Assembly: GCA_001563325.1 (NCBI GenBank)
Contig: LRSK01000164.1
Coordinates: 1-8,824, forward strand
DNA length: 8,824 nt
Source of the DNA: Candidatus Thorarchaeota archaeon SMTZ1-83
GTDB lineage: Archaea > Asgardarchaeota > Thorarchaeia > Thorarchaeales > Thorarchaeaceae
Direction of reading: 5' to 3'
Translations under genes and position numbers: made by a program
Notes under the pieces: model-generated
Databases searched by the model: none
The model's input: only the letters and a program-made list of their open reading frames with translations
Told to the model about the DNA's origin: nothing
Part shown: positions 1 to 5,147 of the stretch, one piece after another
Layout of the letters: the number at the start of each line of letters is the position of its first letter
How positions within the stretch are numbered: position 1 is the first letter of the stretch

Positions 1-64
1 ACGCTGCGGTTTCGGTCATAAAGTCTTCGTCTAGGATACTTGAGAAGCTCTCCAAGAATGACAT
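1..64 (-). CDS. Partial ORF coupled to the exporter gene, unknown product (5' end only)
   Basis: An ATG whose A is also the last base of the exporter's TGA stop (TGATG overlap) opens a frame that stays free of stop codons to the window edge, 21 codons. The visible residues begin MSFLESFSSILDEDF, an acidic, amphipathic-looking start with no recognisable domain. The one-base overlap is the kind seen in translationally coupled genes, and there is no clear separate SD motif. An open run of 21 codons can occur by chance, so the arrangement is the main support. Product unknown. Confidence 0.4.
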   Translation of the reverse strand, partial: MSFLESFSSILDEDFMTETAA

Positions 65-624
65 CACATGAAGCCCAGAATAATCAGGATTCCGAAGGCA
101 ATGAAGACAATTCCTGTGCCTTTTCTCACCATGGTCACTGGTATTCTATCGGCAAGTTGGTCGCCAGAATAAGCACCAACTAGGTTCACAAGAAAGAACC
201 CGGCAATGGCACCTGCAAATACCAACAGAGGAAACAAGGATTGAGCTGCAAGCGCCAGTATTGCTAGTTGGCTTTTGTCACCGAGTTCTGAGAGGAGAAC
301 CAGAGATACCATGCTGAGGAACGTTGTTGGTTGCTTGCAGTCTTCCGCATCTGGACTGTTCCTGATTAAGGCATGAACGCCCATTCCAATGAATAGCGCC
401 CCGGATAGATAGAGAATGAAGTCGATTGGAAGAGTTGCAGCCAGTACGACACCAACGAATACCGCGATAACAGATGCGAATGCAAGCGCCAGCATTGCTG
501 CAAGAAGCACTATGTGGGGGCGTCTGTATTGTGCACTTAGACATAGCGTCGCCAGCATCGTCTTGTCCCCTATCTCTGTCAGAAAGACAAGACCAAACGA
601 TGACAGCAGTGCTTGCAAAGGCAT
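64..624 (-). CDS. UPF0016 / GDT1 (TMEM165) family membrane cation exporter
   Basis: The 186-residue protein is almost entirely hydrophobic, with about six membrane helices arranged as two similar halves. Each half carries the family signature E-x-G-D-K-[TS]: E17-I-G-D-K-T22 and E113-L-G-D-K-S118. In this family the two motifs face each other and form the cation site. Characterised members move Mn2+ or Ca2+ in exchange for protons (bacterial and cyanobacterial Mn exporters, yeast Gdt1, human TMEM165). An Mn2+ or Ca2+ export role at the cell membrane is therefore likely, but the substrate cannot be read from the sequence. Length fits a two-motif family member. The start is the ATG at 622-624, with only a weak purine-rich stretch upstream. 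The gene has its own TATA-like box at 769-775 and a leader of roughly 120 bases. A further frame starts on its stop codon. Confidence 0.88.
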   Translation of the reverse strand: MPLQALLSSFGLVFLTEIGDKTMLATLCLSAQYRRPHIVLLAAMLALAFASVIAVFVGVVLAATLPIDFILYLSGALFIGMGVHALIRNSPDAEDCKQPTTFLSMVSLVLLSELGDKSQLAILALAAQSLFPLLVFAGAIAGFFLVNLVGAYSGDQLADRIPVTMVRKGTGIVFIAFGILIILGFM

Positions 625-803: not shown

Positions 804-844
804 TGGTGCGGAAGGTGGGATTTGAACCCACGAACTGCTTCCAG
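804..844 (-). tRNA. tRNA-like minihelix: acceptor stem, T arm and CCA, no D or anticodon arm
   Basis: On the minus strand, 831-815 is a perfect T arm (GTGGG, loop TTCAAAT, CCCAC). It is followed by acceptor strand CTTCCGC (814-808), discriminator A (807) and an encoded CCA (806-804). No matching 5' half of normal length is present: neither GCGGAAG nor a D-arm or anticodon-arm sequence occurs in the 90 bases back to tRNA-Val. Instead, directly upstream lies CTGGAAG (844-838), which pairs with the acceptor strand over five Watson-Crick pairs plus one G-T, with a C-C mismatch at the end. The linker to the T arm is CAGTTC, close to a normal variable loop. The whole therefore looks like a tRNA with positions 8-43 removed. 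It could be a tRNA pseudogene, the 3' half of a split tRNA, a 3'-end duplication left by an integrating element, or a real tRNA-like RNA. No isotype can be assigned. Confidence 0.5.
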
Positions 845-932
845 ACCAGATGTCCTATTCGTATGACCCGCATGAATCTGTAGGTGTAAATCGGGTTCTT
901 CAGTTCTTTTGTGATTTGTTGTGGGAGAGAAG

Positions 933-1041
933 TGGTGGGGCGGGCCGGATTTGAACCAGCGACCCTCGAGTGCCAAGGGGGAATTTCCCTTAGTCTTCTC
1001 GGTGTAAGCGAGACATCATAGCCGGGCTAGACTACCGCCCC
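933..1041 (-). tRNA. tRNA-Val(TAC) with a 31-base intron in the variable loop; CCA encoded
   Basis: The minus strand folds as follows. The acceptor GGGGCGG (1041-1035) pairs fully with CCGCCCC (943-937). The D arm GTCT/TGAT contains AGCCCGG. The anticodon stem TCTCG (1013-1009) pairs with CGAGA (1001-997) around loop CTTACAC, giving anticodon TAC (1006-1004), valine. The T arm is GCTGG-TTCAAAT-CCGGC (960-944). Discriminator A is at 936 and CCA at 935-933. Between the anticodon stem and the T arm lie 36 bases instead of about 5. Removing 995-965 leaves the canonical variable loop AGGTC and a 75-base tRNA before CCA. The removed part holds its own hairpin (CTAAGGG with CCCTTGG). CTCG near its 3' end can pair with the CGAG just before the 5' splice site, which gives a relaxed bulge-helix-bulge. 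Isotype is secure; exact splice points may shift by a base. Confidence 0.9.
965..995 (-). other. Noncanonical tRNA intron (between positions 44 and 45 of tRNA-Val)
   Basis: This 31-base segment interrupts the variable loop rather than the usual site after base 37. On the precursor, CGAG of the anticodon stem pairs with CTCG near the intron 3' end. Bulges AAG(A) on the 5' side and AGG on the 3' side flank this four-pair helix. Cutting after the second base of each bulge restores variable loop AGGTC. Archaeal splicing endonucleases of the broad-specificity types cut such sites. Confidence 0.7.
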
Positions 1042-1080: not shown

Positions 1081-1755
1081 TCACTGACGGGCTGCAACTA
1101 TGTGGAACTCATGGAGGGTGTCATCAAGGACGATGCTTCGGACAATGGTGAATCCAAGGCTTGCGACCGAATCGCAGAGGTCGGAGATTGCTGCTGAAGT
1201 TGTTTTTGATTTAAAGGCAGCAATAAGCCACCCTTCGTTCTTCAATAGTACAGAGAATCTGTTGACAAGCATAAGTGTCCCTTGAGGATCAGTTGTGACG
1301 TCGACAAGCAATAGGTCGATTCTTTCATCTTCGCCAAGGATCATTGGGTCCATTGTGAAGGCGTCATCAAATAGGACTGAGATGTTTGGGTATTCGTTTA
1401 CAAGCCTCTCGAGAAACTGGGCGAATTCCTCCGAAACCTCGACACCAACTGCAGTTACACCGCACTCAGCCAAATACGTCAGAAAACCTCCTGCTGAGCT
1501 GCCAATGTCAAGAGCCAGTTTGGCTGAAGTGACAATGTTTCCTATAGCATCATCAATCTGCTTCAATTTCAGGTACCCAACAGGTGTGTCTTTCGATTCC
1601 TTGGAAACAGATACGAAATCTGAACCTTTGATTTGCTTCGAGGCCTTTGCCAGTTCGCCGTTTACCCTCACATGACCTGCTCTAACCGCGCGTTTGGCAG
1701 CTTGACGAGATGAGAAGTAGCCTTGTTCTACCAACCAGGTGTCAAGCCTTGGCAT
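1081..1755 (-). CDS. S4-domain plus FtsJ-type RNA methyltransferase (TlyA/hemolysin family)
   Basis: The 224-residue protein has an S4 RNA-binding domain at about 1-50 (start MPRLDTWLVEQGYFSSR, with R-A-G-H-V-R-V-N-G at 25-33). A Rossmann methyltransferase domain follows, with SAM motif LDIGSSAGGF at 82-91. The order K63 or K65, D152, K182, E216 matches the K-D-K-E tetrad of FtsJ/RrmJ 2'-O-methyltransferases. The bacterial relative TlyA methylates ribose in rRNA of both ribosomal subunits. An rRNA 2'-O-methyltransferase is the likely role here, with the target unknown. I place the start at the ATG at 1753-1755 because GGAGAGAGG lies just upstream; a TTG at 1768-1770 is an in-frame alternative. 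The start overlaps the end of the DUF2110 gene by 14 bases, so the two are probably translated together. Confidence 0.82.
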   Translation of the reverse strand: MPRLDTWLVEQGYFSSRQAAKRAVRAGHVRVNGELAKASKQIKGSDFVSVSKESKDTPVGYLKLKQIDDAIGNIVTSAKLALDIGSSAGGFLTYLAECGVTAVGVEVSEEFAQFLERLVNEYPNISVLFDDAFTMDPMILGEDERIDLLLVDVTTDPQGTLMLVNRFSVLLKNEGWLIAAFKSKTTSAAISDLCDSVASLGFTIVRSIVLDDTLHEFHIVAARQ

Positions 1756-2515
1756 TATACCTCTCTCCAACCTCTTCTGGGATGAATAGATGCATTGGCA
1801 CCCCTTTCAGTCTAGGGCCTATTGCGGCAAGAATGCCTGATGCACGAGTACTCCTCTTGCACCTTAGAGAGAACTCGAAGTGACCGAGTTTCTCTATTTG
1901 ATAGATATCCTGAGAGTGTCCAGACTTTGTCAAAGCGTCTTCAATGATGTTCTTGGTGCATCCTAGAACTAGCAATCGTTGGTGATCATCCCCTGCCCAC
2001 CTCTTGATTCGGGAGAGCGTTGACTCTGCAAGCTCTCCTGTGGTCTTATGATGGGCACTGTCTATTTCCGTGATACGTACTTCAACGGGAAGATGATCTA
2101 CTAGCACCAGGGTGCTAGAGATTGTCCTCAATGAAGACTTCGGCATTGATAGCTGACTTCGAAGGTTGTGAAGTGGAACGAGCACATCCATTTTGGGCGG
2201 CCCCATGATTCCAATGTCGCAGTACAATCCGTATCCTACCTTTCCGACATCGACTAACTGACCCCTGAATGTTGAATCAGTGGAAAGCGCGCCAAACTCA
2301 GAAACACCCCCATATCGTTGCAGCAGTACATTGCCGACAAACTCCTCGTCCTCACCCTCAATATCAACCGTTATGTGATTCCTCTTGTCCGTTCCCAGCT
2401 TCACCAGAGATGCACTCAGTTCTCTGACTATCTCAGTAACATCTATTCTCATATGATTGAGTAGTTGCCTACGGTATGGACCATATGCTTGAGCGTGAAG
2501 GATGAGGTGCCTCAA
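1742..2515 (-). CDS. DUF2110 family archaeal protein
   Basis: The 257-residue soluble protein looks like the archaeal DUF2110 family. Its N terminus (MRHLILHAQAYGPYRRQL) resembles the usual start of that family. Its C-terminal third has a region around LGCTKNIIEDALTKSGHSQD, then GHFEFSLRCKR and a final stretch IGPRLKGVPM, which also fit what I remember of the family. No catalytic motif is evident. Members often stand next to the gene for transcription factor E, as here, where it begins 69 bases after tfe; a role linked to transcription or RNA is an inference from position only. The start is a TTG (2513-2515) with AGGTGG seven bases before it; no ATG lies upstream in frame. Its 3' end overlaps the methyltransferase gene. 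The family call rests on memory of family sequences. Confidence 0.68.
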   Translation of the reverse strand: MRHLILHAQAYGPYRRQLLNHMRIDVTEIVRELSASLVKLGTDKRNHITVDIEGEDEEFVGNVLLQRYGGVSEFGALSTDSTFRGQLVDVGKVGYGLYCDIGIMGPPKMDVLVPLHNLRSQLSMPKSSLRTISSTLVLVDHLPVEVRITEIDSAHHKTTGELAESTLSRIKRWAGDDHQRLLVLGCTKNIIEDALTKSGHSQDIYQIEKLGHFEFSLRCKRSTRASGILAAIGPRLKGVPMHLFIPEEVGERYNAKA

Positions 2516-3947: not shown

Positions 3948-5147
3948 TTGCCAGGGACTACTGATGCAAAGAAAGACAGCATCGATAATTCTACCTACAC
4001 TGAGACCTACACTAGACATCTAGAACGTCGTCTTCGTGCACTTGAAACAGAGAAGCAGATACTGCAAGCTGAACGTTCTAGACTTGAGAAGGAAACTCAG
4101 ACTCTGAGAACTGAGCTCGAGAAACTGAGGCAGTCTCCGCTTATCACAGCAACCGTCATCGAGATACTTGATGATGGAAGAGCGGTCGTGAAGAGTTCAA
4201 CAGGCCCCAATTTCGTGGTGCATATCTCGTCATCCATCCCCAAGGACAAGCTGCAACCCGGCATGAGAGTTGCGCTCAATCAACGATCCTTTGCAGTAAC
4301 ACAGGAATTGCCACCACCAAGAGATCCGATGATTAGGGCAATGGAGATTGAAGAGGCTCCTGATGTTTCCTATGCCGACATCGGTGGACTCAAGGAACAG
4401 CTTCGCGAGATAAAGGAAACAGTAGAATTGCCACTCCTGAAACCTGATCTGTTCGACCAGGTTGGTATCGAGCCTCCTAAAGGTGTCTTGCTGACTGGTT
4501 TCCCAGGTACTGGGAAGACCCTGTGCGCAAGAGCTGTGGCTCATGAAACAAATGCGACTTTCATCAGGGTCATTGGTTCTGAGTTGGTTCAGAAGTTCAT
4601 TGGTGAAGGCGCCAGACTTGTAAGGGAGATTTTCTTGCTTGCCAAGGAGAAGGCACCAGCTATTGTTTTTGTCGATGAGCTTGACGCAGTAGGTTCACAT
4701 AGACTGGACATTGCTACCTCAGGTGATAGGGAGGTCCAGCGCACACTGATGCAACTGCTCAGCGAGCTGGATGGTTTTGAGAATCGTGGACAGGTGGCGG
4801 TCCTTGGAGCTACCAACAGACCAGACATCTTGGATCCAGCTCTTCTAAGACCAGGGCGTTTTGATCGGATAATCGATTTTCCTGTTCCAGATGAGGAGAG
4901 TCGAAAGGAGATTTTCAAGATTCATACGCGCGGAATGAATGTTGATTCTGAGCTTGACTATGATAGGCTGGTATCTGCAACGTCGGAACTAACAGGTGCT
5001 GCCATCAAGGTAATCTGTATTGAAGCGGGCATGTTTGCTATTCGTGACAACAGAACCTTTGTGGTACAAAATGACTTCATCAAGGCCATTTCGAAGATTC
5101 GGGATAGAGGAAAGGGTGATGGTGCACCAAGTACCCTATATGCTTAG
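3948..5147 (+). CDS. pan: Proteasome-activating nucleotidase PAN (AAA+ ATPase)
   Basis: PAN is the hexameric unfoldase that feeds proteins into the archaeal 20S proteasome in the cytoplasm. The 399 residues follow the family order: a coiled coil (about 20-62), an OB domain (about 66-120) and an AAA+ module. Visible motifs are Walker A G184-F-P-G-T-G-K-T191, pore loop K216-F-I-G-E-G, Walker B I-V-F-V-D243-E244, and the second region of homology GATNRPDILDPALLRPGRFD (287-306) with arginine fingers R301 and R304. The C terminus S-T-L-Y-A fits the HbYX tail that docks into the proteasome alpha ring. Walker A has F where most relatives have P (GPPGTGKT). The start is a TTG, chosen because GAGGTG lies six bases upstream and the coiled coil would be lost with any later ATG. 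taw2 follows after 42 bases. Confidence 0.96.
   Translation: MPGTTDAKKDSIDNSTYTETYTRHLERRLRALETEKQILQAERSRLEKETQTLRTELEKLRQSPLITATVIEILDDGRAVVKSSTGPNFVVHISSSIPKDKLQPGMRVALNQRSFAVTQELPPPRDPMIRAMEIEEAPDVSYADIGGLKEQLREIKETVELPLLKPDLFDQVGIEPPKGVLLTGFPGTGKTLCARAVAHETNATFIRVIGSELVQKFIGEGARLVREIFLLAKEKAPAIVFVDELDAVGSHRLDIATSGDREVQRTLMQLLSELDGFENRGQVAVLGATNRPDILDPALLRPGRFDRIIDFPVPDEESRKEIFKIHTRGMNVDSELDYDRLVSATSELTGAAIKVICIEAGMFAIRDNRTFVVQNDFIKAISKIRDRGKGDGAPSTLYA

Follow-up and report, generated by a model that had tools for sequence, protein, structure and literature searches.

A probable remnant of a tRNA-Leu(UAA) gene, reduced to exon 2 and part of its intron, in a Thorarchaeota contig

The element and its neighbours

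The window, that is, the whole stretch of 8,824 nucleotides that was analysed (contig LRSK01000164.1 of Candidatus Thorarchaeota archaeon SMTZ1-83), contains at 804..869 of the minus strand a tRNA-like element flanked by genes encoded on the same strand. Its upstream neighbours are a gene for a TlyA-like S4/FtsJ methyltransferase (1081..1770, Pfam PF01479 and PF01728) and a tRNA-Val(UAC) gene (936..1041, with its CCA at 933-935), and downstream lies a gene for a GDT1-family cation/proton antiporter (64..624, Pfam PF01169, E 3.9e-40). The close relatives of the TlyA-like protein are metagenome proteins; among the best 120 of 359 matches, the named ones come from Thorarchaeota or Promethearchaeota and, in one case, from Hermodarchaeota, and the closest (P0002-P0012) share 75-82% identity with it. 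The tRNA-Val(UAC) gene, recognized by Rfam RF00005 with 50.6 bits against a gathering score of 29, carries an intron-like insert between the anticodon arm and the T arm, as do its homologues in the relatives. It was missed by ARAGORN in the window, and many of the homologues were given other names by that program.

Homology shows that the element at 804-869 comes from a type II tRNA-Leu(UAA) gene, of which it comprises exon 2 and a portion of the intron. A profile built from 25 Asgard tRNA-Leu(UAA) genes matches the window at 871-804 with 51.4 bits and an E value of 5.8e-16, the match starting at window position 871 and spanning model positions 55-122 of 122, and in a blastn search 66 nt of a complete gene in a related locus (L027:12169-12234) are 94% identical to the window. 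Exon 2 occupies 804..851, as supported by the profile match, by alignment with the 25 tRNA-Leu(UAA) genes and by the match to L027. Read in the direction of the minus strand, it comprises A38 and the 3' stem of the anticodon arm, TCTGG (stem at 850-846), a long variable arm with linker, TCTGGAAGCAGTTC (845-832), a perfect T arm, GTGGG-TTCAAAT-CCCAC (831-815), the 3' strand of the acceptor stem, CTTCCGC (814-808), the discriminator A73 at 807 and an encoded CCA at 806-804. It is preceded at 852..869 by the 18-nt 3' part of an anticodon-loop intron, GGGTCATACGAATAGGAC, which was recognized by alignment with the introns of the relatives and by the start of the profile match; the 37/38 splice position is assumed here from the usual archaeal one.

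An earlier note on this DNA had described an element at 804-844 with a T arm, an acceptor 3' strand, a discriminator A and an encoded CCA; all of these are present on the minus strand, and the profile E value of 5.8e-16 places such a tRNA-like 3' end far above chance. The core of the element was thus correctly placed, and its limits have to be moved out to 851 for exon 2 and to 869 for the intron. A different picture emerges for the acceptor-T minihelix, or armless tRNA, that the note had proposed. The heptamer CTGGAAG, taken there for the 5' acceptor strand, can pair with CTTCCGC at six of seven positions, one of them G-U, but in the alignment it belongs to the variable arm TCTG-GAAG-CAG of the relatives' tRNA-Leu, and CAGTTC, likened to a variable loop, is made up of the 3' side of this long variable arm and the linker. 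The predicted fold of the strand at 804-874 is unremarkable (z -0.38, 63 of 200 shuffles being as good). The minihelix was rejected on two grounds: what looks like a 5' acceptor strand belongs to the variable arm, and the fold is no better than those of shuffled sequences.

A normal intron-bearing tRNA drawing on 845-932, which the note had named as the outcome contradicting it, was sought with ARAGORN, Rfam, profiles and alignment and was not found. ARAGORN, run with or without introns, reports no tRNA in the window at 804-851, nor at the tRNA-Val site, and Rfam at permissive thresholds gives no tRNA match at the site of the element, the sole match there being a sub-threshold one to the T arm of tmRNA (12.3 bits against a gathering score of 47). 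No intact tRNA-Leu(UAA) cloverleaf, with 5' acceptor strand, D arm and anticodon UAA, was found in the window.

The corresponding slot in related genomes

With the TlyA-like protein as the anchor, a contig scan using an alignment of 23 TlyA-like proteins retrieved 74 loci, of which the Asgard loci L001-L032, labelled Thorarchaeota in 30 cases and Lokiarchaeota in two, were used. A contig scan with a single TlyA protein had given 41 pattern matches and no relative, and among viral contigs scanned with the TlyA alignment there were 33 pattern matches and no relative. In this comparison of the locus across related genomes, which the earlier note had suggested, exon 1, missing in the window, is present in 31 of the 32 related loci (29 by regular expression; L030 and L032 by eye), the remaining one, L031, having an assembly gap. 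ARAGORN reports a tRNA-Leu in 25 of the 32, and five more (L004, L011, L028, L030 and L032), whose T loop carries an insert, were judged complete by eye, so that complete single-locus tRNA-Leu genes were recognized in 30 of the 32. L015 lies near a contig end, with no acceptor 3' strand in view. The T-loop insert of the five genes is apparently a further intron; the anticodon-loop intron seems to be missing in L028, L030 and L032, and also in L001.

The surroundings of the gene are largely conserved, and the order of the genes flanking the element in the window is the one usual in the relatives. Matches to tRNA-Val are present in the TlyA-anchored loci, and in 24 of the 32 a homologue of GDT1 was detected. 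In 19 of 25 loci examined the 3' end of tRNA-Val lies at most 260 nt upstream of tRNA-Leu, and in L013, L014, L019 and L027 the complete tRNA-Leu is located about 1.3-4 kb further on; tRNA-Leu does not adjoin tRNA-Val in L026, and the tRNA-Val pattern was missed in L025. The closest counterparts of the window are the intron-bearing tRNA-Leu(UAA) genes of Thorarchaeota, for example those at L002-L003 and L005-L010, which share with it the slot after tRNA-Val, exon 2 and the downstream part of the intron; their 5' acceptor strand, D arm and anticodon, and the upstream part of their intron, are absent from the window.

A family-wide search gave matches from 32 of 47 genomes and none from the other 15; the match in each of the 30 loci retrieved falls within a tRNA called whole by ARAGORN. 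These 30 loci lie partly on the same contigs as L001-L032, and 20 further matches fall outside this set; a class-wide search covered the same 47 genomes. The nearest of L001-L032 by TlyA (81% identity over 101 residues) is L031, on CP070658.1 of genome G001, where the contig breaks within tlyA at a run of 100 N, leaving a gap at the tRNA-Leu locus. In this genome, gapped at the locus, neither GDT1 nor the tRNA-Val(UAC) of the window, an intact tRNA-Leu(UAA) or exon 1 was found. Rfam finds only 35 tRNA matches in it, and ARAGORN run on 30 of its tRNA loci reports no tRNA for Ala, Asp, Asn, His, Thr or Tyr. Since G001 is gapped and the set of tRNAs recognized in it incomplete, these absences say little, and neither support nor refute a 5' half dispersed elsewhere.

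Two of the related loci contain broken copies of the same gene. In L019, from SMTZ1-45, the 5' 103 nt of tRNA-Leu(UAA) (10943-11045), cut in the T loop, are followed by a 3.9-kb insert with a TnpB-like ORF (13933-14775, Pfam PF07282, E 1.8e-13), and a complete tRNA-Leu(UAA) stands beyond it at 14936-15055; the disruption resembles that caused by a mobile element. In L027 a stretch of 28 nt near tRNA-Val (10889-10916; 82-86% identity, E 0.006-0.039) is probably a decayed 5' piece of tRNA-Leu(UAA), an assignment less sure than that of L019; it is followed by 1.2 kb and then by the complete copy, which extends to 12234. That complete copy was labelled aag by ARAGORN owing to the placement of the intron, its loop reading CTTAAGA, and its variable arm matches that of the window although the TlyA proteins are only 45% identical.

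The spacer and the break within the intron

Between tRNA-Val and the element lies a spacer at 872..932, and in Smith-Waterman alignments the segment 909-868 of the minus strand matches the corresponding spacer of some of the relatives. When the spacer was compared with 28 flanks, against 1000 mononucleotide shuffles of the spacer, its score was reached by none of the shuffles for four flanks, all from similar loci, and by 4-6 for three more; for the other 21 flanks it was reached by 89-934 of the 1000 and is not significant. The similarity is modest overall, and these 21 include the flanks of L088 (590 of 1000) and L089 (144 of 1000), whose exon 2 is nearest to that of the window. The conserved block within the spacer reads CACCAAAGAGTTGAAGAG in the relatives and CACAAAAGAACTGAAGAA in the window, and the distance from it to a GCGG motif is 24 nt in 12 copies, 25 in L001 and, counted by hand, 25 in the window. 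The block CAAAGAGTTGAAGA and its variants occur upstream of 17 of 30 tRNA-Leu(UAA) copies, with the window's counterpart at 868-914, and GCGG stands 24-25 nt past the block in 13 of the 17 block-bearing copies. RNAalifold applied to the 17 spacers and that of the window predicts no pairs and no shared secondary structure.

After GCGG most of the relatives continue with TGAG, and the window with GGGTCATACG, which belongs to the intron. From the spacer and intron alignments a deletion junction can be placed at 868..871 of the minus strand, where the GCGG of the spacer would be joined to the GGGTCA of the intron, with GG at 869-868 shared between them. The interval corresponding to the deletion measures 84-105 nt in the 12 of 30 copies that have both anchors; left out of the measure were 13 copies without the spacer block, four that have the block but lack GCGG, and the intronless L001. 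As the spacer runs straight into the middle of the intron and the relatives' interval amounts to 84-105 nt, an in-place deletion has probably removed exon 1 together with the upstream portion of the intron, a conclusion with fair support from these alignments. Chance could account for the two shared nucleotides GG at the join, which are too few for any mechanism to be proved from them. Most simply, a single deletion in place would have joined GCGG to the mid-intron GGGTCA and removed the remaining spacer together with exon 1 and the 5' intron part, some 84-105 nt judged by the relatives. The suggestion of an internally deleted tRNA, one of those made in the earlier note, was therefore nearly right: it is the 5' half that is gone, apparently together with part of the upstream spacer.

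Searches for the missing half within the window gave no convincing candidate. An exon-1 profile has no significant match in the whole window, the best being at 4606-4619 (E 0.31), where blastn finds a 14-nt exact match to exon 1 of L027 (E 0.016); as it lies inside a proteasomal-ATPase-like gene, that is, within coding sequence, the match is taken as chance. A decayed exon 1 was sought in the spacer by Smith-Waterman alignment, and the score of 5 was reached by 1921-1962 of 2000 shuffles. The window downstream of the element holds no exon-1 match of the kind expected of a circularly permuted tRNA.

Taken together, an exon 2 and intron part homologous to those of tRNA-Leu(UAA), found in the orthologous slot with its flanks kept up to the break, make it likely that the element is the 3' remnant of a tRNA-Leu(UAA) gene at its ancestral chromosomal site, broken by an in-place deletion and non-functional. 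Such a remnant would make no working tRNA, because the 5' acceptor strand, the D arm and the anticodon are missing; it may be transcribed as the tail of pre-tRNA-Val. Codons UUA are in use in the reading frames of the window (8 of 2445 codons, 11 frames), so that a working tRNA-Leu(UAA) is to be expected somewhere, and since a broken piece coexists with a complete copy in L019 and probably in L027, the window's organism is likewise expected to have an intact tRNA-Leu(UAA) at another site of its genome, which would read UUA. Two features count against a relic: neither the T arm nor the variable arm has decayed, and the gene is interrupted within its intron, at the place expected for a split tRNA.

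These same features lead to the idea that the element represents the 3' half of a split tRNA-Leu(UAA) joined by trans-splicing, with exon 1 located elsewhere, transcribed separately, pairing with the retained arm of the intron and spliced at a bulge-helix-bulge at 37/38. The retained piece does begin with intron sequence, followed by an exon 2 without decay, and the intron arm CATACGA, which pairs with TCGTATG in the predicted fold of the L027 precursor, is kept; a published split tRNA-Asp is joined at 37/38 as well (PMC3218864). Against this stand the lack of a convincing exon 1 in the window, or in the gapped G001, and the complete single-locus genes of 30 of the 32 related loci. Moreover, the best TATA-like hexamer before exon 2 agrees at only 5 of 6 positions, which 501 of 2000 shuffles equal, and the leader, GCGGGTCATACGAATAGGAC, is not GC-rich throughout, unlike the 13-14 bp stems described (PMC3218864). 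A split tRNA is thus unlikely, and so is a recently split one, in which a deletion would have cut the intron of a formerly continuous gene whose exon 1 persists elsewhere and is joined in trans.

It is quite improbable that the real locus is intact and that about 90 nt were lost through an artefact of assembly or strain mixture, given flanks that stand in their usual order. An overlap of 2 nt would, besides, be too short to collapse an assembly graph. That the truncated gene functions as a small tRNA-like RNA, or yields 3' tRNA fragments, would be in keeping with the intact T arm, acceptor 3' strand and CCA, and the GCGG left by the join could pair with CCGC; it is very improbable all the same, the fold being no better than those of shuffles, no second example having appeared in the family-wide search, where each retrieved match lies in a whole tRNA, and the acceptor pairing supposed in the earlier note for a functional armless RNA relying on the variable arm of tRNA-Leu. 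An attachment-site duplicate, in which the tRNA 3' end would have been copied by an integrating element, is called to mind by the TnpB-like-ORF insert that disrupts the same gene in L019, but it is almost certainly not what is seen here, as the usual neighbours tRNA-Val and GDT1 flank the remnant directly with no element between it and either of them, the homology includes intron sequence and begins in mid-intron, and an exact 28-mer has no match in viral contigs.

Relation to known broken and split tRNA genes

Split tRNAs have been published for Nanoarchaeum, Caldivirga, Aeropyrum, Thermosphaera and Staphylothermus, and in the cases described both halves have been located, with a bulge-helix-bulge where they join, a pairing stem of 13-14 bp and promoters before the halves (PMC3218864). 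With the systems described there, the window shares only the start of a 3' half near the splice junction and a part of an intron as the leader; the partner half, a clear promoter and a GC-rich pairing stem were not found in it (PMC3218864). In Asgard archaea, tRNA genes have many introns, non-canonical ones included (PMC11291895); that paper reports introns, and its main text uses neither the word 'split' nor 'pseudogene' (PMC11291895). No report of a split tRNA in Thorarchaeota or Asgard archaea was found in the open PMC literature. If a partner half were found, the locus would represent a split tRNA in a lineage for which no report was found, and the direction of change would be evident from its intron-bearing orthologues; were the split a recent one, it would provide a natural experiment for the view of 'introns first, split tRNAs later'.

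Regarded as a remnant, the element is a small and clear example of the breakage of an intron-bearing tRNA gene in Asgard archaea, and further broken copies of this gene occur in L019 and, probably, in L027. A comparable case is the tRNA-Thr(GGU) locus of Caldiarchaeum subterraneum, described as grouping a 5' fragment (tRNAThr-F), an insert and a complete gene (PMC3293823). Like the element in the window, tRNAThr-F is a piece of an intron-bearing archaeal tRNA gene at a disrupted locus; according to that description it represents the 5' side and lies close to an insert with a predicted recombinase gene, whereas the window contains a 3' fragment and no insert (PMC3293823). L019, with its 5' piece, the insert carrying the TnpB-like ORF and a complete copy, is a closer parallel to the Caldiarchaeum subterraneum locus, as described, than is the window (PMC3293823).
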